From NCBI RefSeq assembly GCF_022601895.1, contig NZ_JAKVIO010000029.1:1-55777 (forward strand): a stretch of 55,777 nucleotides of DNA. Direction: 5' to 3'. The DNA is from Sphingomonas sp. LaA6.9. Lineage in GTDB: Bacteria; Pseudomonadota; Alphaproteobacteria; Sphingomonadales; Sphingomonadaceae. This document shows positions 2,533 to 18,096 of the stretch, in pieces; within the stretch, counting starts at the first letter, position 1; the number at the start of each line of letters is the position of its first letter. The position numbers and the translations under genes are program-made. A model generated the notes under the pieces. That model was not told the origin of the DNA. It was given only the letters and a program-made list of their open reading frames with translations, and made no database searches.

Positions 2533-3246
2533 ATGAATGTGAGCGTGCCAGTGCTTCAACCCGAATCCGACCCGGCGGCGCTGGCTTTCACGCGGCTTGG
2601 CGAAAAGGTGGATCTGCTCGAGGCCGCCATCACAGGCCTAGCCGCCAAAAGAGAGGCCACCCCCGATTACAGCGAAACCCTGGGGGAGATGGCAGGCCGC
2701 CTCGACAGGGTATACAAGGCCATCAACATACTGGGCGACAGACCGGCCATGAGGCTCACGCCTGCGGAGATGGCCAAACAGATCGAAGCGGCTGGGGCGA
2801 TGGCGCGTACAGCAGATGGCACTACGATCCAACAGGCACGGAATCAGATCGACCACGCGGCGCAGCGCATGAATGCGCTTGCCGGGACAATTGCCACGAT
2901 CCGCGAGCAGCACGATCACCTAAAATGGACCGCGTGCGGTGGCCTGCTGGCGGGGATGCTGATCTGGTCATTCCTGCCAGGCGTAATCCTGCGTACCATG
3001 CCTCAGGGCTGGTATCTGCCTGAGCGCATGGCGGGCCATATGATCGGGGCGCCGACAATGTGGGAGGCCGGAACACGGCTTCTACGCGCGGGCAGCCCGA
3101 AGGACTGGAATGCGTTTGTCGAGGCCACCGCGTTGCTGCGCGATAATCGCGAAAAAATCGCGGAATGCGAAAAGGAGGCGCAAGAGGCAAAGAAGCCGGT
3201 TCCATGTGCCATCAGGATCGGGTCTAGCGCTGAGCCTGCGAGCTGA
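2533..3246 (+). CDS. DUF6118 family protein, mobile-element associated
   Basis: A 237-aa protein starting at ATG behind a good AAGGAG Shine-Dalgarno sequence (about 2519-2524). The order of features is a short acidic N-terminus (DPAALAFTRLGEKVDLLEAA), a long helical region that is probably coiled coil (about 20-130), one membrane segment (about 133-154, GGLLAGMLIWSFLPGVIL), then GWYLPERMAGHMIGAPTMW and a charged tail. This matches DUF6118 proteins, which I know mainly from plasmids and integrative elements of sphingomonads, often near conjugation genes. The molecular function is unknown. No conjugation gene is visible here, so it may be a leftover of a larger element extending to the left. 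Confidence 0.75.
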   Translation: MNVSVPVLQPESDPAALAFTRLGEKVDLLEAAITGLAAKREATPDYSETLGEMAGRLDRVYKAINILGDRPAMRLTPAEMAKQIEAAGAMARTADGTTIQQARNQIDHAAQRMNALAGTIATIREQHDHLKWTACGGLLAGMLIWSFLPGVILRTMPQGWYLPERMAGHMIGAPTMWEAGTRLLRAGSPKDWNAFVEATALLRDNREKIAECEKEAQEAKKPVPCAIRIGSSAEPAS

Positions 3247-3580: not shown

Positions 3581-3991
3581 ATGGACAGTTTGACCAGAGA
3601 GCGACGCTCAGAGGTCATGTCCCGAATTCGAGGACGTAATACTAAGCCGGAGATGCTTGTCAGGCGGACTGCCCATGCGCTCGGTCTACGTTTCCGCCTG
3701 CATCGCAAAGATCTTCCCGGCACACCGGACTTGGCCTTTCCTGCCAGGAAGACCGCGCTGTTCGTTCATGGGTGCTTTTGGCATCGCCACTACGGATGTA
3801 AATTTGCCTACATTCCGAAGTCGAACGAGGTATTCTGGTCGCGGAAGTTCGCTCGGAATGTCGCACGCGACCAGGAGGCGATGAACGGGCTGCGCCGCGC
3901 GGGCTGGCGGCCGATCGTGATCTGGGAATGCGAAACAAAGCAGGCGGATCTCGCCGCACGCATCGACCGGCTGCTAAAGGAAGTGGCATGA
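3581..3991 (+). CDS. vsr: Very short patch repair endonuclease (Vsr)
   Basis: A 136-aa protein, the normal size for Vsr. The ATG at 3581 is chosen because AGGAG lies eight bases upstream; a further in-frame ATG at 3542 lacks this. Vsr nicks next to T in T:G mismatches that arise when 5-methylcytosine deaminates. Visible motifs are MSRIRGRNTKPE near the N-terminus, PGTPDLAF with the catalytic aspartate, FVHGCFWHRHYGCKF carrying the catalytic and zinc-binding His/Cys, and GWRPIVIWECE near the end. The last codons overlap the methyltransferase start (ATGA, 3988-3991). That coupling implies the partner makes C5-methylcytosine and that Vsr limits C-to-T mutation at modified sites. It is the first gene of the eight-gene cassette. 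Confidence 0.95.
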   Translation: MDSLTRERRSEVMSRIRGRNTKPEMLVRRTAHALGLRFRLHRKDLPGTPDLAFPARKTALFVHGCFWHRHYGCKFAYIPKSNEVFWSRKFARNVARDQEAMNGLRRAGWRPIVIWECETKQADLAARIDRLLKEVA

Positions 3992-5469
3992 GCCTGACGA
4001 TCCGCCGCGCCAAGCTGGAGCGTCTCCGGCTGGGCAATGCACCCCGCGTGCTTGAACTCTGTTCGGGCTGCGGCGGTATGTCGCTTGGGCTGCACGCCGC
4101 CGGCTTCGAACTTGTCGGCCATGTCGAAAATGACCCTGTGGCGGCAGAGAGCTATGCGCTGAACTTTTCCTCCCCCGAAGGTGTTGATCGGGAACGTTGG
4201 GCGCTTCCGCGCGATATGGTCGAATGCAGCGCGGCCGACCTCGCCGCCGATCTGGATCTTGCGGAAGCCTCGGGCGCATTCGATGTGCTCGCTGCCGGTC
4301 TGCCATGTCAGGCCTTCGCTCGGATCGGCCGATCTAAGCTGCGATCGGTCACGGGCGACGACGACGCCTTCCGGAACGATCCGCGGGCCAAGCTCTACCG
4401 ACGTTTTCTCGAGTATGTCGAAGCAGTCCAGCCGATCGCTATGATCATCGAGAACGTCCCGGACATCCTGAACTTCGGCGGTCACAACATCCCCGAGGAG
4501 ATCTGCGAGACGCTCGATGCGCTGGGCTATGAGACCAGCTATACGTTGCTCAATGCCGCTTTTTATGGCGTGCCCCAGATGCGCGAGCGGCTGTTCTTGA
4601 TCGCCTATGACAGGTCGCTCGGGTTGCGGCCAACCTTTCCCGACCCGACGCATGCCGCCGAGCTGCCGTCGGGATATGAAGGTGCGCGCACGGTCGCTCT
4701 CAAGTACATCCCGTCGGAAGGCTCTCATTTCCACCCCATCCCCGCACCGGGAACCGATCTTCCGGGAGCCGTGGCGGTCAGGGCGGCCCTCTCGGATCTC
4801 CCGTTCATCTCGGAGCATTTCCGCGACCCGAGGACGATGCGGCGACGCAAGCTGACCGAGCAGTTGCCCTATCGCACCAACAATGACCTGTCCGCCTATG
4901 CGCGTCGCATGCGCGAATGGGAGGGGTTCGCGACCCGCCGATCAACCGACGGTCACCTAGTGCGCCTCACGCCGCGCGACTTCGCGATCTTCCGGCGCAT
5001 GCGGGTCGGCGCCGATTATCCGCGCGCCCTGCAGATCGCGGAGGAAATATTCTCCGAGCGCCTCGCCGAGCATCATCCACGGCCCCGCAAGGGCAGCAGA
5101 GCGTGGGAGGAAATCCGTAAGAGCTGCGTGCCGCCGTATGACCCCGGCAAGTTCCCGAACAAATGGTGGAAGCTGGAACCGACCTCCCCGTCGCGCACGT
5201 TAACCGCGCATCTCGGCAAGGACAGTTACTCGCACATCCACTGGGACAGCCGGCAGCAGCGGATGATCTCCGTGCGTGAGGCCGCCCGGCTTCAATCCTT
5301 TCCGGACGGCTTCCGTTTCGCGGGCGCGATGAACGCCGGCTTCCGGCAGATCGGGAATGCCGTCCCGCCGCTGCTTGCGCTGGCAATCGGCAGACATCTG
5401 CGGGGCGAGCTGGGTCAGGCACTGATGCGGGATCGACGAGATAATCGGGAGCAGAACGAGGCCGCCTGA
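3988..5469 (+). CDS. DNA (cytosine-5-)-methyltransferase
   Basis: A 493-aa protein. The start at 3988 overlaps the vsr stop. Class I C5-methyltransferase motifs are in order: motif I VLELCSGCGGMSLGL (21-35, SAM binding), motif IV AAGLPCQAFARIG with the catalytic Pro-Cys (P106-C107), motif VI IIENVPDIL (Glu 155), motif VIII YGVPQMRERLFLIA, and the C-terminal motif X GNAVPPLLALAIGRHL. A variable stretch of about 200 residues between VIII and X would be the target recognition domain. It presumably marks host DNA so that the downstream ATPase/nuclease module spares it. The target sequence cannot be predicted by eye. About 100 bases separate it from the next gene, the only real gap in the cassette. 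Confidence 0.95.
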   Translation: MSLTIRRAKLERLRLGNAPRVLELCSGCGGMSLGLHAAGFELVGHVENDPVAAESYALNFSSPEGVDRERWALPRDMVECSAADLAADLDLAEASGAFDVLAAGLPCQAFARIGRSKLRSVTGDDDAFRNDPRAKLYRRFLEYVEAVQPIAMIIENVPDILNFGGHNIPEEICETLDALGYETSYTLLNAAFYGVPQMRERLFLIAYDRSLGLRPTFPDPTHAAELPSGYEGARTVALKYIPSEGSHFHPIPAPGTDLPGAVAVRAALSDLPFISEHFRDPRTMRRRKLTEQLPYRTNNDLSAYARRMREWEGFATRRSTDGHLVRLTPRDFAIFRRMRVGADYPRALQIAEEIFSERLAEHHPRPRKGSRAWEEIRKSCVPPYDPGKFPNKWWKLEPTSPSRTLTAHLGKDSYSHIHWDSRQQRMISVREAARLQSFPDGFRFAGAMNAGFRQIGNAVPPLLALAIGRHLRGELGQALMRDRRDNREQNEAA

Positions 5470-5552
5470 TCCGAGCACGGCGACCGGCGCGAACAACCAA
5501 ACGATAGCATCTTGGTTTATTCAGGAGCGGTTCCCGTGCGATGCCGCTTTCC

Positions 5553-5562
5553 GAGGAGGGGG
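5553..5562 (+). promoter_or_regulatory. Strong Shine-Dalgarno sequence fixing a TTG start
   Basis: GAGGAGGGGG lies eight bases before TTG at 5571. An in-frame TAA at 5565-5567 rules out any earlier start. The next in-frame ATG would remove the ATP-binding N box. The GHKL ATPase must therefore start at TTG. Confidence 0.75.
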
Positions 5563-5570
5563 CGTAAGAG

Positions 5571-7055
5571 TTGAAGACGATCGAGATCGCGCCCTATGCC
5601 GGCGCCTTGCTGAAGTCCCTCCGTGGCTTCGGCTACTCTCCCGAAACCGCGCTGGCCGATCTGGTGGACAATTCCATTTCTGCCGGTGCCGATCACATCG
5701 ATCTCAGTATCGACTGGAACGAGGGTGAACCCCGCATTGCGGTGCGCGACGACGGGCCGGGCATGTCCCACGATGCCCTTCTCGAGGGCATGCGTTTCGG
5801 CGGTGACGAGAACCAAGAGCGCGGCCCGGACGATCTGGGCCGCTTCGGACTCGGCATGAAGACGGCGTCGCTCTCTCAATGCCGGCGGCTCACCGTCGTT
5901 AGCCATCATGCCGGCAGCACCAGCAGCATGTGCTGGGACGTCGAGAAGGTGCTGAAGGCGAAGAACTGGTGTGTCGAGACCGGGACTTTCCCGGATCCGT
6001 TCGAGCATGTCGCCATTCCGACCGAGACCGAAGGCACACTGATCGCGCTCGAAAAGATGGATGAGCTCGGAGGCCTGTTCGGGCTCGACAAGGAAGCGTT
6101 CTTCTCGAAGATAAAGGATGCGCGAGACCATTTCGCCATGGTATTTCATCGCTTCCTCGACGGCGATGCCCGCCGCATCCGGATCACGATCAACGGCCGC
6201 GCCGTGGATGGCTGGGATCCCATGCTGCGCACGCATCCGGCAACCCGACCGCTCGGCGCGGGCCGCATCGGAATTGGGGCGCAGGCCGTGCAGGTCACTC
6301 CATTCGTTCTGCCCCATCGCGACCGGTTCGCAAACGAGGCGGAGTTCAATGCAGCAGGTGGCCCCGGTGGCTGGGCCGAACGTCAGGGGTTCTACGTCTA
6401 TCGGGCCAAGCGGCTCGTGGTTGCTGGAAGCTGGCTCGGGCTTGGCGGCCACCGCGAATGGACCAAGGACGAGAGCAGCCGGCTCGCCCGCATCACGATC
6501 GATCTGCCTCAAAGCGCTGACGCCCTGTGGCGCATCGACGTGCGGAAGGCTCGCGCCCGCCCGCCTGCCGCACTGCGCGGACGTCTGTCCGCGATGGGAG
6601 GTCAGTGCCGCGACCGCGCTCGCGAAGTGTTCGCTTGGCGCGGTGGACAGATCCGCACGATGAAACCCGGGCAGGAGCCGCCGGCACCAGTCTGGAATGA
6701 GGAGCATCGATCTGGAAAGCGGAGCTACCGGATCAACCGCGAGCACCCGGTCATTGCCCAGCTGCTCGGGGGTGACGCCTCGACACGTCGCCTCGCCCGC
6801 GCCGCCATCAGTTTGATCGAGCGTTCGGTGCCGGTCGAAAGGATCTGGCTGGACATCTCGGAAAATGTCGAAGCTGCGGTCGACCTCGAGGCGGTCGACG
6901 GCTTCCTGGTCGATGATCTCGTTGCAGCGATCGGCGCTTCGAAGGCAGGTGCGAGCCCCGAGGAGGCGCTCGATGGACTACTGCGAAGCATTCGGCTGGA
7001 AGCACCCGCGCTGCGCAAGGCCGTGCTGAAAAAGCTGGGAAAGAGCGATGAGTGA
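5571..7055 (+). CDS. MutL/MORC-like GHKL ATPase of an R-M-type defence system
   Basis: A 494-aa protein from a TTG start. The N-terminal GHKL (HATPase) domain shows the N box ALADLVDNSISAGA (about 28-40), the G1 box VRDDGPGMSHDAL (58-70) and the G2 box LGRFGLGMKTASLSQ (89-103). The N box has Asp 30 where MutL has its catalytic Glu; I believe Asp is common in this bacterial branch. The pattern is that of prokaryotic relatives of eukaryotic MORC proteins found beside methyltransferases. The domain is expected to dimerise on ATP and clamp DNA. The middle and C-terminal parts look like the S5-like and partner-binding regions, but I see no nuclease motif. Its 3' end overlaps the Z1 gene by eight bases. 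Confidence 0.88.
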   Translation: MKTIEIAPYAGALLKSLRGFGYSPETALADLVDNSISAGADHIDLSIDWNEGEPRIAVRDDGPGMSHDALLEGMRFGGDENQERGPDDLGRFGLGMKTASLSQCRRLTVVSHHAGSTSSMCWDVEKVLKAKNWCVETGTFPDPFEHVAIPTETEGTLIALEKMDELGGLFGLDKEAFFSKIKDARDHFAMVFHRFLDGDARRIRITINGRAVDGWDPMLRTHPATRPLGAGRIGIGAQAVQVTPFVLPHRDRFANEAEFNAAGGPGGWAERQGFYVYRAKRLVVAGSWLGLGGHREWTKDESSRLARITIDLPQSADALWRIDVRKARARPPAALRGRLSAMGGQCRDRAREVFAWRGGQIRTMKPGQEPPAPVWNEEHRSGKRSYRINREHPVIAQLLGGDASTRRLARAAISLIERSVPVERIWLDISENVEAAVDLEAVDGFLVDDLVAAIGASKAGASPEEALDGLLRSIRLEAPALRKAVLKKLGKSDE

Positions 7056-9804
7056 TACCGCCGTCCAGACTCTGACCAACATGGCGCGTCAGCTCCTGAC
7101 ATCGACCGACGAGCGTCCGGAAGACCGGGCCGCGATCCGGGATGCCGTGGATTCCGTCATCCCAATCGTCGCGCGACGGACGGACCATACCTTCACCGAA
7201 GACGAGATCGAACAAGCGGTCCGCGTGCTGGAGACTGCCTATGTGGTTCAGCAGGGGCACGCGGTCGCAATCATCGACCGCGAAGTCCCGCTCGAATGGT
7301 ATGTGGGCGAGCGACGCAGACCCGGCCCGTTTATGGCTCGATATCTGCAGAAGCTGCAGGAGGACGACTGGCCGGTCCGCTCGGTTGAGGAGCTGCGCGA
7401 CAGCACGGCGCGTGTCGTCGAACTGCTCGACGATCCTCGACGCGACGGCCCTTGGAACTGGCGCGGTCTGGTGGTCGGCGATGTCCAATCGGGCAAAACC
7501 GCGCATTATGCGGGCGTGATCAACCGCAGCGTCGACGCAGGCTACAGGGTGATCATCGTTCTCGCAGGCATGCACAATTTGCTGCGGCTACAGACACAAA
7601 TGCGGCTCGAGCTCGACTTTCTCGGCTATGATACGAAGCCGGATCAGCAAGACGCCGGACGGCTGAAGGCGATAGGCGTCGGCCTCATCCCTCCGGCACT
7701 GCCCGCTGGCAGCCTGACGCTCGCTTCGCCAACAGGCGACTTCAACGTCGCGTTCGCGCGTCAGGCCAATTTCGCTCCGCTCGACCAACCATGCCTGTTC
7801 GTGGTCAAGAAGAACGCGACCATCATGCGCAACCTCAACGGATGGATTGGAAAACTGCCGGAGGAGTTCCGGCGTGCGCCGCTGCTGCTGATCGATGACG
7901 AGGCCGATCAGGCGTCGATCGATACCAAGGATCAGCCGACGCTGCCGGACGGCAGTTTCGACGGAGATTATGACCCGACTCGCATCAACGGCGAGATCCG
8001 CAGGATGCTGGGTGCGTTCAAGCGATCAGCCTATGTCGCGTATACCGCGACGCCGTTCGCCAACATCCTGATCCACGACGAACGGGCGGCAGAGAAATAC
8101 GGGTCCGATCTCTTCCCTTCGACCTTCATCTTCGCGCTGACGCCCCCGGACGACTATTTCGGCCCAGCGGCGGTGTTCGGCACCAACAACGACATGGGCA
8201 GTGTCGGACTGCCGCTGACCCGCCATGTCGATCAGGGCACCGAAGGTTGGATCCCCGACCCGCACGACAGGTATCTACGCCCACGCTACCAAGGGGAGGC
8301 CGAACTTCCGCCCTCGCTCAAGGAAGCGGTGCGAGCCTTCCTGCTTGCATGCGCTGCACGGGCGGCGCGCGGGCGGCCATCGGCTCACTGCTCCATGCTC
8401 ATCCACGTCTCCCGTTTCGTCGATGTCCATGATCAGGTGCATTCTCAGGTGGAGCGCTATCTTGACGACATCCGCGCCCGCATCTCCGGAGGCGACGCCG
8501 AAACGCTCGCCGAGCTCGAGACACTGTGGCGCGAGGACTTCGTGCCGACGACCGCCGACATCCGCGGCACGGTTTTCGACCGGGGAATGATATCCGTGGG
8601 CTGGCCCGAGATCCGGGCCCTCCTGTCCGATTCGAGCGACAAGATCCAGGTCATTGTCGCCAACGGCCGGTCCAAGGCCGCGCTCGACTATGACCGCTAT
8701 CGTGAGACCGGCCTGTCGGTGATTGCGATCGGCGGTGACAAGCTGTCCCGAGGGCTGACACTCGAGGGCCTGATGGTCAGCTATTTCCTCCGCATCGCCA
8801 AACAGTATGACAGCCTGCTGCAGATGGGCCGTTGGTTCGGCTACCGCCGCGGCTTTGCGGACCTCTGCAGGCTCTACACCACGCCGGACATGGAGGACTG
8901 GTTCCGACACGTAGCGACCGCCAGTCAGGAACTGCGCGCAGAGCTCGTTCACATGCGACTGATGCTCCAGACCCCCAAGGACTACGGCCTCAAGGTCGAA
9001 TCACACAGCGTCATGAACGTGACCGCACCCAACAAACAGAGGCATGCGGTGGAACGACCCACGAGCTTCGCAGGCGAAGGCAAGATCCAGACGGTCATGT
9101 ACGCTGAGCGCGGCCTTCTTGAGCAGAACGCCACGGCCACCGACACCTTCCTCGAATCCCTGGACGCTCCGGAAACAGGCTTCCAGCGCCCCGGCGGCGC
9201 TGGAACCGCGGCGGGGCTCGTCTGGCGGAATGTTCCCGGTGATCGGGTTGCCTCCTATCTCCGGACACTTAGCTTCCCGCCCGAAAACCGCGAAATCGAG
9301 GCTCCTCGGCTTGCGGGCTATGTCGAGGAACAGCTGCGGCAGCCTACCTCCGAACTGACGACATGGACCGTATTCGTTCCGTCGGGCGACGGCCGCGATG
9401 TTCAGATCGCCGGGCAACGGCTCAGAAGCACCATCCGTCGGCCACTCGCGACGCGTCAGGTCGCCGGCCGCTACATCGTGCGATCGATTCTCAACCCACC
9501 CGACGAGGCGCTCGACCTCACAGATGCCGAATATGCTGAGGCTCTGGCCGAAACCAACCGCATCCGCGATTTTGTTGGTCAGGGGCCGTCGGACCGCCCG
9601 GCGGGCCCGGACATCCGCCGCATCCGTGGTCGCCGCCCGGAGCACGGCATGCTCATTCTTTATCCGCTCGACCCGGCTACGCCGGGAACGGTCGAGACCG
9701 AAGGGCCCGTGATCGGGGTGATGATCAGCTTTCCGGAGAGCCCCACCGCGACGCTCAGATATTATGTTGAGAATACCGTGCTGCAGAAGGATCGGCTGCG
9801 GTGA
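7048..9804 (+). CDS. Z1 domain superfamily II ATPase
   Basis: A 918-aa protein. Motif I is LVVGDVQSGKTAHYAGVINR (GDVQSGKT at 144-151). Motif II is LLLIDDEADQASI (about 280-292), motif III-like is YTATPFANILI (about 332), and the Z1 signature covers IAIGGDKLSRGLTLEGL (about 560-576) and LLQMGRWFGYRRGFADLCR (about 590-610), which supplies the arginine finger. These are the hallmarks of Z1 proteins, which occur with MutL-like ATPases, DUF4420 and AIPR genes. The likely role is an ATP-driven translocase or remodeller coupling recognition of unmodified DNA to cleavage. It starts inside the ATPase gene and ends in a GTGA overlap with the next gene, indicating balanced co-synthesis. Confidence 0.92.
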   Translation: MSDTAVQTLTNMARQLLTSTDERPEDRAAIRDAVDSVIPIVARRTDHTFTEDEIEQAVRVLETAYVVQQGHAVAIIDREVPLEWYVGERRRPGPFMARYLQKLQEDDWPVRSVEELRDSTARVVELLDDPRRDGPWNWRGLVVGDVQSGKTAHYAGVINRSVDAGYRVIIVLAGMHNLLRLQTQMRLELDFLGYDTKPDQQDAGRLKAIGVGLIPPALPAGSLTLASPTGDFNVAFARQANFAPLDQPCLFVVKKNATIMRNLNGWIGKLPEEFRRAPLLLIDDEADQASIDTKDQPTLPDGSFDGDYDPTRINGEIRRMLGAFKRSAYVAYTATPFANILIHDERAAEKYGSDLFPSTFIFALTPPDDYFGPAAVFGTNNDMGSVGLPLTRHVDQGTEGWIPDPHDRYLRPRYQGEAELPPSLKEAVRAFLLACAARAARGRPSAHCSMLIHVSRFVDVHDQVHSQVERYLDDIRARISGGDAETLAELETLWREDFVPTTADIRGTVFDRGMISVGWPEIRALLSDSSDKIQVIVANGRSKAALDYDRYRETGLSVIAIGGDKLSRGLTLEGLMVSYFLRIAKQYDSLLQMGRWFGYRRGFADLCRLYTTPDMEDWFRHVATASQELRAELVHMRLMLQTPKDYGLKVESHSVMNVTAPNKQRHAVERPTSFAGEGKIQTVMYAERGLLEQNATATDTFLESLDAPETGFQRPGGAGTAAGLVWRNVPGDRVASYLRTLSFPPENREIEAPRLAGYVEEQLRQPTSELTTWTVFVPSGDGRDVQIAGQRLRSTIRRPLATRQVAGRYIVRSILNPPDEALDLTDAEYAEALAETNRIRDFVGQGPSDRPAGPDIRRIRGRRPEHGMLILYPLDPATPGTVETEGPVIGVMISFPESPTATLRYYVENTVLQKDRLR

Positions 9805-10781
9805 CCGTCACCCAGGCCGACCTTGCATCACTTTGGTCCCGGCTTGCTGGGGCGGGAGCAGGGCAGCGACGGTTCGTGAGTCTGCGTGTCGATGGTGCGG
9901 GAATGCTCGATGTCCATGCGGCGCTGCGCACGGCCGACCACAGTCCTTGCCTCCTGTTCGACGCGCGCGACGGCCTGCCTGACGATGTCGAATTCGAGGT
10001 AGGCGGCATGCGCTGCGCACGCGCGGCGACCGATACCGGCCAGAGCTTGGTGTTGTCGCTCGAGGATTCCGGACGGCGCGACCTTTTCGCGACACTCGGC
10101 GCCGACGTGATCGGATACGCCGCCAACGTATCGGGGCCGAAGGCGCTGCCCGCCGTGCTGACGCGGCTGGATGCTTGGCGCCTGTTCCTGCGCTCCATCG
10201 GCGACGGTATGACCCGAAGCGAAATCATCGGCCTCATCGGCGAGCTTCGGATCCTCAACGATCTTCTCACCGACGATCCATCGCTGCTCACCACCTGGAA
10301 GGCACCGGATGACGGGATTCACGACTTCGAACATCTTGGCCAAGCGCTTGAAGTAAAGGCGACGACAGGCCCTGGATCACGCGTGACGATCTCCAGGCTC
10401 GATCAGCTAGACGATGGCGGACTCGACCGGCTCGACCTGGTTCATGTCCGCCTCTATGAAACGCCGCAGGGGGAAAGCGTGGACGATCTCGTGGAGCGGA
10501 TAACGGCGGCGCTGCCGGATGTAGAGGCGAAACGGCAGCTTTCCAATGCACTGCTTCGGCGCGGACTGAGCCCGGACGACCGCCGGGCGCGTTCGGGTCT
10601 CCGCACGTCGCTGCAGCAGATCGTCGTCTATCGCGTCGACACAGGCGTTCCACGCATCCGGCGGGGCGACGTGCCGCCCGCCATTCTCGACGTCAGCTAT
10701 GTGCTGGATCTCGGTCAGCTGGGATCCGCCGCGGAGCCATGGTCCTCGGTGATGGTTTCGCTGGCACGGAGGGGCCACTGA
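9801..10781 (+). CDS. PD-(D/E)XK motif protein (DUF4420), candidate restriction nuclease
   Basis: A 326-aa protein with a GTG start whose GTGA overlaps the Z1 stop. A helical region GMTRSEIIGLIGELRILNDL leads into WKAPDDGIHDFEH, then LGQALEVKATTG. The D...EVK arrangement (about residues 165-195) is the PD-(D/E)XK active site of restriction-like nucleases and defines DUF4420. It is the only clear DNA-cutting domain in the cassette besides Vsr, so it is the best candidate for the restriction activity, probably directed by the Z1 and GHKL ATPases. Its last base is the first base of the AIPR start codon (TGATG at 10779-10783). Confidence 0.88.
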   Translation: MTVTQADLASLWSRLAGAGAGQRRFVSLRVDGAGMLDVHAALRTADHSPCLLFDARDGLPDDVEFEVGGMRCARAATDTGQSLVLSLEDSGRRDLFATLGADVIGYAANVSGPKALPAVLTRLDAWRLFLRSIGDGMTRSEIIGLIGELRILNDLLTDDPSLLTTWKAPDDGIHDFEHLGQALEVKATTGPGSRVTISRLDQLDDGGLDRLDLVHVRLYETPQGESVDDLVERITAALPDVEAKRQLSNALLRRGLSPDDRRARSGLRTSLQQIVVYRVDTGVPRIRRGDVPPAILDVSYVLDLGQLGSAAEPWSSVMVSLARRGH

Positions 10782-12886
10782 TGGACGACCCACTTCACGG
10801 CTTTGCCGAGGCATTCGCTGCAGACATTGAGGAGGCCGTTTCCAGCCCGGACGCTCCGACGCTCTTTTCGGGAGAGATGTTCACCAAGCTGGTCCTGGAA
10901 CGGCTGGAGGACGCCGAACGCCTGGAACAGGCTTTCGATCTCTATCAGGAAGGCCATACCGGCCGCGCCAGCTATCGCATCGACGGCTACGCCATCGATG
11001 ATGAGCGCGGAGCGCTTGAGCTGTTTACAACGATCCACACCGGAGAGATTCCGCCGGTACGCCTGCCGACGGCCGACATCAGAAGCGCCTACGACCGCGC
11101 GCTTCGCTTCGCTCGCGCATCGATGGAAGGTCTCGCCGACAAGCTCGAACCCTCGAACACTGATGCCAGCGACCTCGCGAGACGGATCGAGCGCGAAGCC
11201 GACCGCATCAGCTCGATCAGGCTGATTTTGCTCACCGACCAGCTCACTGGCCCAACCCTGCCGGCAGACGGAGAATGGTCGGGGCGGACCATCGAGCATG
11301 ACGCCTTCGACATGGTCCGTCTTCATCGGATCCTCGGCGAGGGTGAGACCCGCTCGGACATCGCGGTGGACCTGCGACAGCTCGCTGGCGCAGCGCTCCC
11401 GTGTCTTCCGGTTCGCCCGCACGCTGGCGGCTACGAAGCCTATCTGACCGTCATGCCGGGCGACATGCTCTCGAAAATCTATCAGCGTTATGGCGTCCGT
11501 CTCCTCGAACTCAACGTGCGCGCCTTTCTCGGAATTCAGGGAAGAAAGAGCGTCAACGCGGAGCTCCGGCGGACAATCGCCGACCAGCCCGCGATGTTCC
11601 TGGCATACAACAACGGCATCGTCGCGACGGTCGACGAGATCGAGTTCGACGATGACGGAGCCGGCCGGTCGCTCATCACGGGGCTGCGAGGTCTTCAGAT
11701 CGTCAACGGTGGCCAGACCACGGCTTCACTTCACCGCGCCCGTTTCAAGGATCGTCTATCGCTCGACGGCGTCGAGGTTCCGGTCAAGATCATCCGCGTC
11801 ACCAGCGGGGACCTTGCCGAGATGGTCGGCTCCGTCTCCCGTGCCGCAAACCGTCAGAACACGGTGCAGCAGGCCGACTTTTCGTCCAACGACCCGTTCC
11901 ATCAGGAAGTCGAGGCGCTGGCAAATAACTGCTGGATCGATAGCGGTCGCGGCCGCTGGTTCTATGAGCGCGCGCGGGGCTCCTACCTCGCAGCCGAGCA
12001 GAAAGCGTCCTACCGCGCCAAGGATGAGCAGGCATTCCGGGTGCAGACCCCACGCACCCGCCGTCTGAGTAAGCTCGATCTCGCCCGATATCTCAATGCG
12101 TGGAACGGCCTGCCTTACCGAGTGTGCCTGGGCGGGCAGAAGAACTTCCAGCATTTCATGCAACGCCTGAAGGACCAGCCCCCGCCGCCGCCGGACGAGG
12201 CGTGGTTCCGGCGCCTGATTGCCACCGCCATCCTCTACCGCGCGGCGGAACGCATCATTCGTCAGATGGCCTTTCCGGCGTTCCGGTCCCAGATCGTCGC
12301 CTATCTCGTCGCAGGTCTCTCGCAGCGGACAGGCGGCCGGATCGACTTCGAGGGAATCTGGCGGCGCCAAGCGATCTCTTCGGAGCTGGAGGATCTCCTT
12401 CGAAGCTGGGCACCGAGAATCGACGAGGTCCTGCGTGCGACCGCAGGCCAGCGCAATCCCGGTGAATGGTTCAAGCGGGAAGAATGCTGGAAGGCGGTCC
12501 GGGAAGACCTCCCGGATCTTTGCGATCCCCTGCCTTTCGAGCTCGCGAACGCAGCCGCCCGGCCTGCCGGGGATGGCGTCGCAGAGAAGCACGCCGGACC
12601 TGCGCTTTCCGTCGAAGATTTCGAGCGCATCCGTCGGTGCATGGAGGTCGACAGCGCAACCTGGATGCAGGCCGCGGAACTTGGTCAGCGTAGCAAGACA
12701 ATTCACTGGAAGACAGCAGGCATTCTTCGCACGCTTGCGGGATATGCCGCGGGTGGCTGGGACAAACGTCCTTCGACCAAGCAGGCGAAGCCGGCGCTCG
12801 ACGCTCTGCAGGCTGTCCGGCATGCCGGTCTCCTCGGCTCGGAAGACGAGACGCCGCAATTCGACGCGGATGGAGAGCCCGGCTGA
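10781..12886 (+). CDS. AIPR family (abortive infection phage resistance) protein
   Basis: A 701-aa protein. ATG at 10781 is preferred over an in-frame start 42 bases upstream because GGAGG precedes it and TGATG couples it to DUF4420. The AIPR signature lies between about residues 230 and 320: LNVRAFLGIQGRKSVNAEL, FLAYNNGIVATVDEI and LQIVNGGQTTASLH. AIPR proteins were first recognised in abortive-infection systems and recur in R-M-like operons; their biochemistry is largely unknown. The rest is mostly alpha-helical, with no nuclease motif I can identify. The gene overlaps the next start by one base (TGATG, 12884-12888). Confidence 0.9.
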   Translation: MDDPLHGFAEAFAADIEEAVSSPDAPTLFSGEMFTKLVLERLEDAERLEQAFDLYQEGHTGRASYRIDGYAIDDERGALELFTTIHTGEIPPVRLPTADIRSAYDRALRFARASMEGLADKLEPSNTDASDLARRIEREADRISSIRLILLTDQLTGPTLPADGEWSGRTIEHDAFDMVRLHRILGEGETRSDIAVDLRQLAGAALPCLPVRPHAGGYEAYLTVMPGDMLSKIYQRYGVRLLELNVRAFLGIQGRKSVNAELRRTIADQPAMFLAYNNGIVATVDEIEFDDDGAGRSLITGLRGLQIVNGGQTTASLHRARFKDRLSLDGVEVPVKIIRVTSGDLAEMVGSVSRAANRQNTVQQADFSSNDPFHQEVEALANNCWIDSGRGRWFYERARGSYLAAEQKASYRAKDEQAFRVQTPRTRRLSKLDLARYLNAWNGLPYRVCLGGQKNFQHFMQRLKDQPPPPPDEAWFRRLIATAILYRAAERIIRQMAFPAFRSQIVAYLVAGLSQRTGGRIDFEGIWRRQAISSELEDLLRSWAPRIDEVLRATAGQRNPGEWFKREECWKAVREDLPDLCDPLPFELANAAARPAGDGVAEKHAGPALSVEDFERIRRCMEVDSATWMQAAELGQRSKTIHWKTAGILRTLAGYAAGGWDKRPSTKQAKPALDALQAVRHAGLLGSEDETPQFDADGEPG

Positions 12887-13725
12887 TGGCGGGACGCGGC
12901 GGAAGGCCGACTTGGCCTGGCGGCATGCGACGGCGCGAAGGAGTCAACTATGACCGGCAGTTGATTCTCCGCTCGGCCCCGGGAGGCCTGCCGGCCGCTC
13001 TGCCGCTGGTGCATGTCACGGCTGCATGGCCGGCGAAGGAGATCGTCCGCAGCGGGAAACTAATCACGAAACGCTGCGACGTGTTCGAGGCCGAGCTTCT
13101 CTATTTGTTCGTCCTGCGTCCTGCCTATCGTTCGAAATTCGGGGACACGGAATCGCACCAGCTGTCCCGCTTTCCTGTCGTTTTCATTCTGCGGCCGGAA
13201 GCTGTTGCCGATCCCCGGCACGTATACCCCTTCGATACCGGCGGCGCGGCAAAGGGGGCCTTTGCCAAGCAGGCCGATCCCTACGTTCCGCTGGAGGACT
13301 ATGCGGTCGCGCCCAGCCATGCCGGCGCTGTGGGCCATGTCGGATGGGCATTTGGATCCCTTGACGCCTATTTCGAGGGACGTCTCCGAGAAGGGCTGCA
13401 AGATGAGGTTCCCGCCGGCGAGAGCGTCACGAGAGGCTTCATCGATGTCGCGCGGATGGGTGTCGAAGGGAGCAACGAGCACGACAAGCGGGCCTCGACG
13501 ATCGAACTGGCGGCGAGCCACAACATCGATCTGCCGGGCAATGTTGAACTCGTGATCCTGCCAAAGCAGTATCTCGAAGGAAATGTGACCCTGCTCGACG
13601 AGATCAAGGCGTTCGGCGCGGATGTTGAACTCTATGACTGGCAGCCGAACCGCGCGCCCGACGAATTCCAGAAGGACATCTTGCGCATCAGCCGAGACTG
13701 GTATCAGCACAAGGGCATCATGTGA
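12886..13725 (+). CDS. Uncharacterised 279-aa cassette protein, possibly ADP-ribosyltransferase-like
   Basis: I do not recognise a family. The start is fixed by TGATG coupling to the AIPR gene. The basic N-terminus (GRGGRPTW...RRRE) is followed by ALPLVHVTAAWPAKEIVRSG (His 43), LLYLFVLRPAYRS (Tyr 81), RFPVVFILRPEAV, YPFDTGG and KRASTIELA (Glu 207). An H-x-T followed by I-x-x-G-x-L near the N-terminus, a mid-domain Tyr and a late Glu resemble the H-Y-E triad spacing of DarT/PARP-type ADP-ribosyltransferases. This is a weak pattern match, and a nuclease accessory or structural role is equally possible. It ends in a GTGA overlap with the last gene, so it is certainly part of the operon. Confidence 0.75.
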   Translation: MAGRGGRPTWPGGMRRREGVNYDRQLILRSAPGGLPAALPLVHVTAAWPAKEIVRSGKLITKRCDVFEAELLYLFVLRPAYRSKFGDTESHQLSRFPVVFILRPEAVADPRHVYPFDTGGAAKGAFAKQADPYVPLEDYAVAPSHAGAVGHVGWAFGSLDAYFEGRLREGLQDEVPAGESVTRGFIDVARMGVEGSNEHDKRASTIELAASHNIDLPGNVELVILPKQYLEGNVTLLDEIKAFGADVELYDWQPNRAPDEFQKDILRISRDWYQHKGIM

Positions 13726-16463
13726 CGGACGAACTGGACGAATTCGAAGACATGCGGCTGTCAGGCTATGTGAAACTGACAGAACAGGGCTTCGCGCTTC
13801 CAGCTTACGTCGCCCGGCCGGGAGCGAACGCTTGGTACGCCGCTCTTCCTGCCGTGGAAGGTGATCACGCATCCACCATCGCCAGCTTCGAACTGCTGGA
13901 CGATGAAGACATAATCCCGCTGCCTGATACCACCATCATCGTCAGTCCGGGGGCACCCTGGCAGGATGTATTCCTCTGGGGAGGACGCGTTTTCGCTGGA
14001 ACGCCTAGTCAGCTATTCGACGCGTTGGCATTGTACCAGGATCAGCTTCGCGCTCTCGCTCCTCTTTCTTATCTCGATCTGGCGGTCGCCGCGGAATCTC
14101 CCGTGTCAGCGGATCTCGCGGCAGGCGCGCTCGCCTTTCTCGAGGGAAAGCTCGGCGGCGCCGCCGGCGCTGCTTCGTTCCGGGAGCTGGTCCTTCGGCC
14201 CGGCGTTCTGATCGAACTTCAACGTCAGTATCGAAAGTTTGGACCAGACCGGCTGCCGAGTCCGCTGCGTGACTTCATCCTGCGGGAACATGAACCGGGA
14301 CGGTTCGAAGTCGAGCTGGTGCCTGGCACCGCGGTCGCGATCGGGGGCGGGCCCGCCGCTGTCGAGCTGCGTGCCTCGATCACCCGGTTCGGTGATATTG
14401 TCGGACTGCCACTGCGGACCGCAGGGCTTGACGAGCGCGAGCCCTCGCCGGTGCTTCCCGAGCCTCCGGCCGAGGAGCCATCGCCGCTGCTGGATTATCA
14501 GACGGTCGGGCGCAGACCATCAGCCGAGCCTTTTCGGAGCGTTCTGATCATCGCAGCGGATCGGCGCGCGGCGCAGATCGCGCGATATCTCGAGCCTCCG
14601 CTTGAGGTTAGTTTCGGTGCACGATCGATATGGGGCGCCCAAACCTACCGCATCGAGCACCTGAGAGAATTCAACGACATCCCCCGAGTCTCGCGTGACG
14701 CTGTCATCAGTGTCGTCGGGACCATCGAGCCGGATATGCCGCTGGATGACTTTGCGCTGGTGGTCTGGCTGGCCGGCAACGAAGCACTCCGCGACGATCG
14801 CGCCAATGCTGTCCTGGCCGCCGTCCGCTCGCTGAAGCCCGACACACCCTTTCTGATCGCACCGGCGCCGCCGTCCGATGGTCCATCAGTCCTCATGGAG
14901 GAGCGTGACAATTCCGAACAGCTCCTGCGGAGGTGCAATGCGATTATCGACACCACCCTTGCTCGCTCGCCGTTTTGGGCCGGCCAACCGCGTCGTTCGG
15001 TAGACCGGCGCATGGCGGATATCGTCGCGACCGTAAGCGTGGTCGCAGCGCTGGACAGCAAGCTGCGAGCTCCGCTGAGAGATGCTCGCGGTTCAAAGCA
15101 GCCCCGTGCTCTCTCTTTCCTCGGCGGACACGGCAGGTTTGATGTCGAACGAGCCACGGCCTCAGAGCTCAACGCGGCCGGCCTCGCACGCCAGCCGTAC
15201 GACGAGATCCATGCGCGGGTCGGATTCGAGATGCGCGAACGGTCCAGCAAACGAATCCAGAACGCTTTCCTGGATCTTCAGCCACTTCGACCCGATTTCG
15301 AGCAATTTGCCGAGGCGGCGGTGGTCGAGGCCCTCGATCCGGGGAGACCATGGCAAGGGGCGCTCTCGGCAGGACGCGACGTTCCTGCTTCCATTCTCCG
15401 GACCATGGATCATCCCGATCTGGCCATAGTCGTTCAACCATCGGACCGGACCGGTCAGCCGATCGTCGTCACGGCGGAAGCGCCGGACCTGCGGACCTTG
15501 CGCGAAGCGGAACGCAAGGGAGCATCGGTAGTCCGATACACCGATGTCGATTCGCTGCAGGCATTGGCGGGACGAGATCGCCACATTCCGCTCCCGCGAG
15601 AGATGCGACTGCCGACGCTCCATCGCTACCCGAGGAACCGGGGCCTCGCGGCACGTGGTGTCGATACGCGGGACGTGTTCCGGTTGCCCGAAACGCAGTG
15701 GATGGAGCTCGTCGCGGCTCATCCCGCTACCGAACTGGAAGGACAGGTCAGACGGTATCTCGCGGCGATCGACACCCGTAGCGCCGAACCGGAGATTGCC
15801 TTGCCGGGGCCGGCGGTCTGGAACGCCGCCAATGCGGGCGATACCCTCGCCGAGGAACTGACTGGCAGGCTTGCGTGCTTGAGAAGCGATCGCGCGCTTT
15901 CAGGAAAACGGACCGGAGATCTGATCGCCGCGTGGTCACGGCCGGCAGATGGTGCTCGCCGCTGGGTTCTGGAAGATGGTCGCCTGCCTGTGGAAATGAC
16001 CGCGCTGGATCCCAACGCGGTGCCTGCTCAGCGCCTGTTCTTCATCGACGGCGACGGCGCCGTCCCTGCGTTTCTTCTTTCCCGGCTGTTCGAAGTCTGG
16101 GCACGGGCTCTGCTTCCCAGCGCCACCAGCTGGGCCTCACGATTTCAGGTCGGCAAGACTTTTGACGCGTTCCCGTTTCCGTGGAGCTTCGCGATCCGCC
16201 CCTCCGAGAACGGCAGCCCTGCTCACCTTCGTTTTTCAGAGAAGAACCGGACTGGAGCAAAGCTTGCGGAACTGGTTGGGCGAAATGCACGCCATGTCGC
16301 TGAGGTGTCGGAAGAGTTCGGGCGGGACAAGCGTGGATTGCGCGATCATCCATTGATGCGAGAGGTGGACATGCTGCTACTTGAGGACTTCCATCTTCCG
16401 GCGGACGCCAGTGACCTAGACATCATCGAACTACTAGTCGAGCGTAATCAGGAGCGCATGTAG
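13722..16463 (+). CDS. Uncharacterised 913-aa cassette protein with TRD-like C-terminus
   Basis: The last gene of the cassette, starting at GTG inside the previous stop (GTGA). The first 260 residues match nothing I know. Residues about 265-380 look like a Rossmann-type alpha/beta unit (RSVLIIAADRRAAQIARYL ... ALVVWLAGNEAL). The most telling part is near the end: LLSRLFEVWARALLP (about 786-800), then FQVGKTFDAFPFPWSFAI (about 808-825). Type IIG and BREX/DISARM-type methyltransferases carry a closely similar block, roughly S-R-x-H-E-V-W-A-R then T-F-E-T-F-P-F-P, in their target recognition domain. No SAM-binding or N-P-P-Y motif is seen, so this may be a stand-alone DNA recognition or inactive methyltransferase-derived subunit. 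That is inference. Confidence 0.78.
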   Translation: MTDELDEFEDMRLSGYVKLTEQGFALPAYVARPGANAWYAALPAVEGDHASTIASFELLDDEDIIPLPDTTIIVSPGAPWQDVFLWGGRVFAGTPSQLFDALALYQDQLRALAPLSYLDLAVAAESPVSADLAAGALAFLEGKLGGAAGAASFRELVLRPGVLIELQRQYRKFGPDRLPSPLRDFILREHEPGRFEVELVPGTAVAIGGGPAAVELRASITRFGDIVGLPLRTAGLDEREPSPVLPEPPAEEPSPLLDYQTVGRRPSAEPFRSVLIIAADRRAAQIARYLEPPLEVSFGARSIWGAQTYRIEHLREFNDIPRVSRDAVISVVGTIEPDMPLDDFALVVWLAGNEALRDDRANAVLAAVRSLKPDTPFLIAPAPPSDGPSVLMEERDNSEQLLRRCNAIIDTTLARSPFWAGQPRRSVDRRMADIVATVSVVAALDSKLRAPLRDARGSKQPRALSFLGGHGRFDVERATASELNAAGLARQPYDEIHARVGFEMRERSSKRIQNAFLDLQPLRPDFEQFAEAAVVEALDPGRPWQGALSAGRDVPASILRTMDHPDLAIVVQPSDRTGQPIVVTAEAPDLRTLREAERKGASVVRYTDVDSLQALAGRDRHIPLPREMRLPTLHRYPRNRGLAARGVDTRDVFRLPETQWMELVAAHPATELEGQVRRYLAAIDTRSAEPEIALPGPAVWNAANAGDTLAEELTGRLACLRSDRALSGKRTGDLIAAWSRPADGARRWVLEDGRLPVEMTALDPNAVPAQRLFFIDGDGAVPAFLLSRLFEVWARALLPSATSWASRFQVGKTFDAFPFPWSFAIRPSENGSPAHLRFSEKNRTGAKLAELVGRNARHVAEVSEEFGRDKRGLRDHPLMREVDMLLLEDFHLPADASDLDIIELLVERNQERM

Positions 16464-16528: not shown

Positions 16529-17824
16529 TTAATCATCCCATGGAAGTAGCACCGTCGATTGTGGCTGGCGGGGCCGCGTAATCGCCATAGCTGGAAGCGC
16601 CTTGCCCTCAAGGCCGGCTTTTTCGGCCGTGTCGAGATAGTCCGCCCACCACTGCATCATGGGCCGACGGTGCTGAAGGTACAGCGCTGAGTTATAAGCG
16701 GCCCTGACGCCGCGTGGCTGATGGGCAAGTTGGTGTTCGATCCAGTCATCTTTGAACAGGCCTGTCTCGTTGAGGACCGTGCTCGCAAGACCTCGAAATC
16801 CATGGACGGTGGCTTTTCCCCGCAACCCAAGCCGATACATGATGTGGTGCATTCGATTTTCGCTGATGACCAGTGATTGAGCGCCCGCAACAGGAAAGAG
16901 AAAACGGCCGAGCCGCATATTGCCCGCCTTGCGGAAGATGTTGAGCCCATGGATTTCACGGAGCAATGTGACTGCCTGGTGCGACAGTGGCACGAGATGC
17001 TCGGAGCGCATCTTCATGCGTTCAGGGGGAATTCTCCACAAGGGTTCGGCACCATCAAGATCCTCGAATTCGGACCATTCAGCAAAGCGCGTTTCCTGGC
17101 TGCGCACCATCGTGACCATGGTCCAGCGCAGAGCCAGATGGCTGAGTCGCGAGCCCCCATCGGTACCCAGCCGCTGGAAGAATTCGGGAAGTTCGCGGGC
17201 GCTCACCTTTGGGCGGTGCTGCACTGGTTTTGGCTTGGTCATCGCTGCCGACAGATCTCGGCAGGGGTCACTCTCGCAGCGCCCATCGGGTATCGCGAAG
17301 CGGAAGATCTCGCTTACATGGTTCTTCACGCGGTGCGCCATTTCCACAGCCCCCCGCGCCTCGATCCTGCGGATCACCTCAAGGATCGTTCTGGGTGTGA
17401 TCGCGCTGATCTCGGTCTTGCCGATAAAAGGAAAAACGTCGGCCTCGAGCCGGCCAACAACGAGCGCCGCATAGCGCGGTGACCAGCCAAGGGTGCGCGT
17501 CTCAAGCCATTCGCGCGCGACATCCTCGAAGCCGTTCGAAACGGGTGCCCGGAGCAGTTCCTTGTCAGCCTTGCGCTCGGCTGATGGGTCGAGCCCTCGC
17601 GCGAGTTGTTGTTTCGCCGCATCTCGCCAGGTTCGTGCGGCCTTCAGACCGACCCGGGGATAACGCCCCCCGGAAAGAAGCTTCTGCTTGCCCCCGAAAC
17701 GGTAGCTGAGGCGCCAGAATTTCTTGCCATCGCATTGGACAAGGATGAAGAGTCCGCCCCCATCGGATTTCTTATAGGGTTTGTCTGCGGGCTTGAGGGC
17801 CCTGAGCGCGATGTCGGTCAGCAT
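16529..17824 (-). CDS. P4-type tyrosine recombinase/integrase
   Basis: A 431-aa protein. The N-terminal DUF4102 arm-binding domain reads LTDIALRALKPADKPYKKSD, GGGLFILVQ and KFWRLSYRFGGKQ. The SAM-like core-binding domain follows (about 100-190). The catalytic domain has the first Arg in VRSQETRFAEWSEFE, the H-x-x-R box VHGFRGLAST, a His in IEHQLAHQ and the Tyr nucleophile in RAAYNSALYL. All catalytic residues seem present, so the enzyme may be active. Family members usually integrate at tRNA genes, and tRNA-Gln lies 198 bases beyond its start. It converges with the defence cassette, 65 bases from its stop, which fits an island border. Confidence 0.93.
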   Translation of the reverse strand: MLTDIALRALKPADKPYKKSDGGGLFILVQCDGKKFWRLSYRFGGKQKLLSGGRYPRVGLKAARTWRDAAKQQLARGLDPSAERKADKELLRAPVSNGFEDVAREWLETRTLGWSPRYAALVVGRLEADVFPFIGKTEISAITPRTILEVIRRIEARGAVEMAHRVKNHVSEIFRFAIPDGRCESDPCRDLSAAMTKPKPVQHRPKVSARELPEFFQRLGTDGGSRLSHLALRWTMVTMVRSQETRFAEWSEFEDLDGAEPLWRIPPERMKMRSEHLVPLSHQAVTLLREIHGLNIFRKAGNMRLGRFLFPVAGAQSLVISENRMHHIMYRLGLRGKATVHGFRGLASTVLNETGLFKDDWIEHQLAHQPRGVRAAYNSALYLQHRRPMMQWWADYLDTAEKAGLEGKALPAMAITRPRQPQSTVLLPWDD

Positions 17825-18021: not shown

Positions 18022-18096
18022 TGGCTGGGGCGGCAGGATTCGAACCTGCGAATGCCGGTACCAAAAACCGGTGCCTTACCACTTGGCGACGCCCCA
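18022..18096 (-). tRNA. tRNA-Gln (anticodon TTG)
   Basis: The minus strand gives a 75-nt cloverleaf with a 7-bp acceptor stem (TGGGGCG/CGCCCCA), discriminator G and an encoded CCA. The anticodon stem CCGGT/ACCGG encloses the loop TTTTGGT, giving anticodon TTG for Gln CAA codons. The T arm contains GGTTCGAATCC. The 3' half of such genes is a common target for P4-type integrases, and an integrase lies directly downstream. Because the tRNA is complete, it would be the restored copy at the island edge. Confidence 0.95.

Follow-up and report, generated by a model that had tools for sequence, protein, structure and literature searches.

MORC/paraMORC restriction operons were described by Iyer et al. 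(2008; PMC2292703) and, according to the available portion of that paper, contain genes for a GHKL ATPase, an SFII helicase, a novel restriction endonuclease-fold nuclease, a methylase, Vsr, and AIPR. The locus reported here, from Sphingomonas sp. LaA6.9, has this gene set in common with those operons. It lies within a 55,777-nucleotide stretch of contig NZ_JAKVIO010000029.1, hereafter referred to as the window, where eight genes follow one another on the plus strand between positions 3581 and 16463. On the basis of their sequences, the first six represent a type of anti-phage restriction system already known from bacteria (predicted activity), a kind of defense for which experimental support is thin. 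The original prediction held that these six families co-occur in MORC-type restriction-modification-like systems, and the operons of Iyer et al. bear this out. The seventh and eighth genes, designated P1 and P2, are not described in the available portion of that paper. The module that they define combines one predicted enzyme with a partner protein that has many interchangeable tails. The sequence observation behind the original prediction is therefore confirmed, and its interpretation is supported in part.

Results

P1 and P2 constitute a module separate from the six-gene core because the pair is present in none of the 42 recurring loci that resemble mzaABCDE (MZA). According to a profile of the N-terminal region of P2, referred to as P2N, the gene that directly follows P1 bears P2N at 81 of the 88 loci, in addition to the window, and P2N occurred in no other of the 7,943 open reading frames (ORFs) examined. 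The pairing also held in all eight loci outside the training set. The module is distributed over at least five phyla, with several of the records being metagenome bins. The search of each protein against Pfam and the defense catalogues that had been proposed with the original prediction assigned Pfam families to genes 1 to 6, but neither P1 nor P2 was matched in Pfam (E 0.1), PADLOC and NCBIfam (E 0.01), or PHROGs (E 1). Unmatched in these libraries and unrecognized in text searches of the literature, the module may be of a new kind.

All eight genes had been proposed to form one unit. With the methyltransferase taken to start at ATG 3988 and AIPR at ATG 10781, the junctions are, in order, -4, +101, -8, -4, -1, -1, and -4, in agreement with the overlaps of 1 to 8 bases and the one gap of about 100 bases that had been noted. 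The complete order is kept in five other records. Both the overlapping junctions and this conserved order would be expected of a single obligate defense system, but given the 42 MZA-like loci devoid of P1-P2, we consider such a system very unlikely.

P1 is confidently predicted to adopt an ADP-ribosyltransferase fold that is nearest to DarT. Comparison of the P1 profile with DarT gave a P of 0.011, a value reached by none of 60 column shuffles, and other decoys ranged from 0.15 to 0.71. As a yardstick, DarT against KptA, both accepted ADP-ribosyltransferase families, gave only 0.0021. His 43, Tyr 73, and Glu 207 of P1 are invariant in all 70 rows of the family. In a weak profile alignment to the DarT row, Glu 207 lies opposite a glutamate, Tyr 73 opposite a tyrosine, and His 43 opposite an arginine. 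Neither the Pfam DarT family (PF14487) nor any other Pfam family was matched at an E of 0.1.

The tails that follow P2N range from 0 to 949 residues in length, and the 80 of at least 60 residues fall into 36 groups (blastp, 1e-4). Most match no Pfam family. A Pfam analysis of ten partners revealed RelA/SpoT (L015), an AMP-binding ligase (L021), and an SNF2 helicase (L033); the L010 tail gave a weak TPR match. Scanned as one batch, 46 partners yielded Ribosomal_S9 in two cases and cold-shock, OB_RNB, FecR, RES, and TPR_10 in one case each. By inspection of the sequences, the tails of L043, L051, L060, and L065 are complete ribosomal protein S9 sequences, and that of L054 contains a cold-shock domain. 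The single RES member was assigned by eye to L036 (L036:10714-11784), where the P2 tail is RES-like. Toxins with RES domains are known from other systems.

For the two tail types examined, S9 and RelA/SpoT, the tail was observed to duplicate a host protein that is also encoded in its normal form. Three of the four genomes with S9 tails contain a second S9 gene of normal length (62-81% identical to the fused S9); in the fourth, the fused S9 is the only one found. The RelA/SpoT tail of L015 is identical to the normal-length copy from the same genome at 468 of 759 aligned residues. Its HD motif has changed from HDTIEDT to HGGSAET, however, and its synthetase stretch from SDIFGFR to TH-YAFR, which suggests that catalysis has been lost. 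A third, short RelA/SpoT with a 230-residue open frame is also present in this genome (L238, G686:C7:149095-149508).

In the P1 tree, loci that share the tail type of the window form a clade in which five loci with other tails (L015, L017, L019, L021, and L026) are nested. Their placement indicates that tails have changed more than once, although L019 and L026 have short tails that may result from truncation.

Several of the identified tails derive from ribosome-, RNA-, or DNA-binding families, and DNA is given as the ADP-ribosylation target of DarT in the available portions of the literature. The tail could be a targeting module rather than a bait. S9 and RelA/SpoT tails would bring P1 to the ribosome, cold-shock tails to mRNA, and the MmeI-like end and SNF2 to DNA, such that P1 modifies whatever it sits upon. 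Such an arrangement does not account for the acyl-AMP ligase and FecR tails, however, and the altered HD motif of the RelA/SpoT tail would not be needed for docking. We regard this explanation as rather unlikely, though it overlaps in part with the reading favored below, in which the module guards restriction. If the tails are docking parts, they would show one ADP-ribosylating enzyme aimed at different cell machines.

The window's own tail ends in residues 740-913 of P2, which align with MmeI-like rows with an hhalign E of 2.2e-10. When segments 1-170, 171-440, 441-640, and 600-760 were compared with the MmeI-like family, P was 0.23-0.83, and they gave no Pfam match. In two other loci (L013:1230-4499 and L014:10822-14091), a P2 of the window type carries an additional ∼180 C-terminal residues.

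Linkage to MZA is limited to the window's tail type, with 8 of 11 such loci linked versus 0 of 69 with other tails. Within one P1 clade, the corresponding values are 8 of 11 and 0 of 5. Two geometries are observed: either P1-P2 lies behind AIPR on the same strand, or the two units are convergent, with stops 5-13 bases apart (L020, L024, and L025). At L023 (7196-9895), P1-P2 has the tail type of the window but no MZA, and genes for AbiTii and an AAA ATPase immediately precede the pair, a defense-island context. P1-P2 might instead be a plain toxin-antitoxin or stand-alone defense pair hitch-hiking in a defense island, its place behind AIPR reflecting shared transcription only. This would agree with the finding of no nearby MZA gene in 79 of the 88 P1 loci (a weak GHKL match in L010 aside), with varied contexts such as that of L023, and with the presence of P1-P2 without MZA on seven of eight plasmids examined. 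The confinement of the linkage to one tail type and its occurrence in two geometries argue against hitch-hiking, which we judge to be unlikely.

Coordinates are provided in Table 1. The methyltransferase contains the ENV and RE.AR.Q.FP motifs, and LPCQ was identified by eye; the GHKL ATPase displays the DNS and DDGPG boxes. In the MZA-like cassette on a plasmid of S. meliloti GR4, a CHAT-domain protein of 1276 residues (L167:15983-19810) is encoded directly behind AIPR, the position of P1-P2 in the window.

The cassette is probably located on an island, because it is followed by an integrase gene and a tRNA-Gln gene and, beyond the tRNA, by three ORFs of housekeeping families (aminotransferase IV, pyrroline-5-carboxylate reductase dimerization, and M23 peptidase). 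No second copy of the 3' end of the tRNA-Gln gene (as an att repeat) was found within the window, and the left end of the island was not located. Upstream of the cassette, positions 2533-3246 encode a DUF6118 protein (Pfam, 2e-20).

Table 1. Cassette genes and flanking features, in window positions
Feature	Position	Strand	Remarks
Vsr mismatch endonuclease	3581..3991	+	Pfam Vsr 9e-29; NCBIfam TIGR00632 above its cut-off
C5-cytosine DNA methyltransferase	3988..5469	+	Longest ORF from 3928; Pfam DNA_methylase 1.2e-52
GHKL ATPase, MzaB-like	5571..7055	+	PADLOC MzaB 1e-112
Fourth cassette gene (Z1 in the original prediction)	7048..9804	+	
DUF4420 PD-(D/E)XK nuclease candidate, MzaD-like	9801..10781	+	Pfam 4.6e-61; PADLOC MzaD 6e-20
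AIPR protein, MzaE-like	10781..12886	+	Longest ORF from 10739; Pfam AIPR 3e-85, AIPR_N 8e-36; PADLOC MzaE 4e-98
P1 (gene 7)	12886..13725	+	279 residues; predicted DarT-like ADP-ribosyltransferase fold
P2 (gene 8)	13722..16463	+	913 residues; ∼11-169, P2N; ∼740-913, MmeI-like target-recognition/C-terminal end
Tyrosine integrase (context, outside the system)	16529..17824	-	Pfam Phage_int_M 2e-31, Arm-DNA-bind_3 1e-22
tRNA-Gln (context)	18022..18096	-	ARAGORN; likely integration target

Discussion

We lean, by a little, toward the view that P1-P2 beside the restriction genes serves as an abortive second line that guards restriction. P1 would be a DarT-like effector, presumably toxic, and P2N would restrain it. 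The P2 tail would function as a swappable bait or docking part that senses or docks, and the pair would have been recruited beside restriction here, making the link to MZA a functional one. A more specific proposal, which we offer tentatively and by analogy, is that the module is built like the integrated-decoy nucleotide-binding leucine-rich repeat (NLR) receptors of plants. A constant ADP-ribosyltransferase and a constant P2N adaptor would be combined with a tail copying a host protein targeted by phage, be it S9, an altered RelA/SpoT, a cold-shock protein, an acyl-AMP ligase, or a DNA-recognition end. In the window, the bait would be tied to restriction, and counter-restriction by a phage would lead to suicide. 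If the tails are indeed baits, they list host proteins attacked by phages and offer a ready route to phage triggers.

Among described systems, DarTG resembles the module in its predicted enzyme, yet P1 is not matched by the Pfam DarT family, and its partner consists of P2N and a swappable tail. No Pfam match to the DarG macrodomain was found in P2, nor was that domain among the families of the other P1 partners scanned. The last 170 residues of P2 match the target-recognition end and C-terminus of the MmeI-like type IIL restriction-modification enzymes, but no methyltransferase or nuclease part was recognized in P2 because none of the four segments that span residues 1-760 gives a match. CglI and NgoAVII are three-gene systems with a PLD-type nuclease carrying a B3 domain, and the available text names no GHKL, AIPR, or DUF4420 gene for them. 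The accessible portion of Miller et al. (2022; PMC9523054), which presents a putative defense system "type II," does not mention P1 or P2.

With respect to MZA, the PADLOC models MzaB, MzaD, and MzaE (Table 1) and MzaC (2e-178) are all matched. The scores fall below the NCBIfam equivalog cut-offs, however, namely 423 of 850 bits for MzaB, 692 of 1500 for MzaC, 123 of 420 for MzaD, and 430 of 1050 for MzaE. No match to the MzaA sigma factor was detected in the eight genes or in the four upstream ORFs scanned with Pfam; in L172 and L173, a sigma-70 gene is positioned upstream of the GHKL gene. The unit in the window further differs from MZA in having Vsr and the methyltransferase in front and P1-P2 added behind. 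The core is already known, and it is the attachment of P1-P2 to an MZA-like core that is new.
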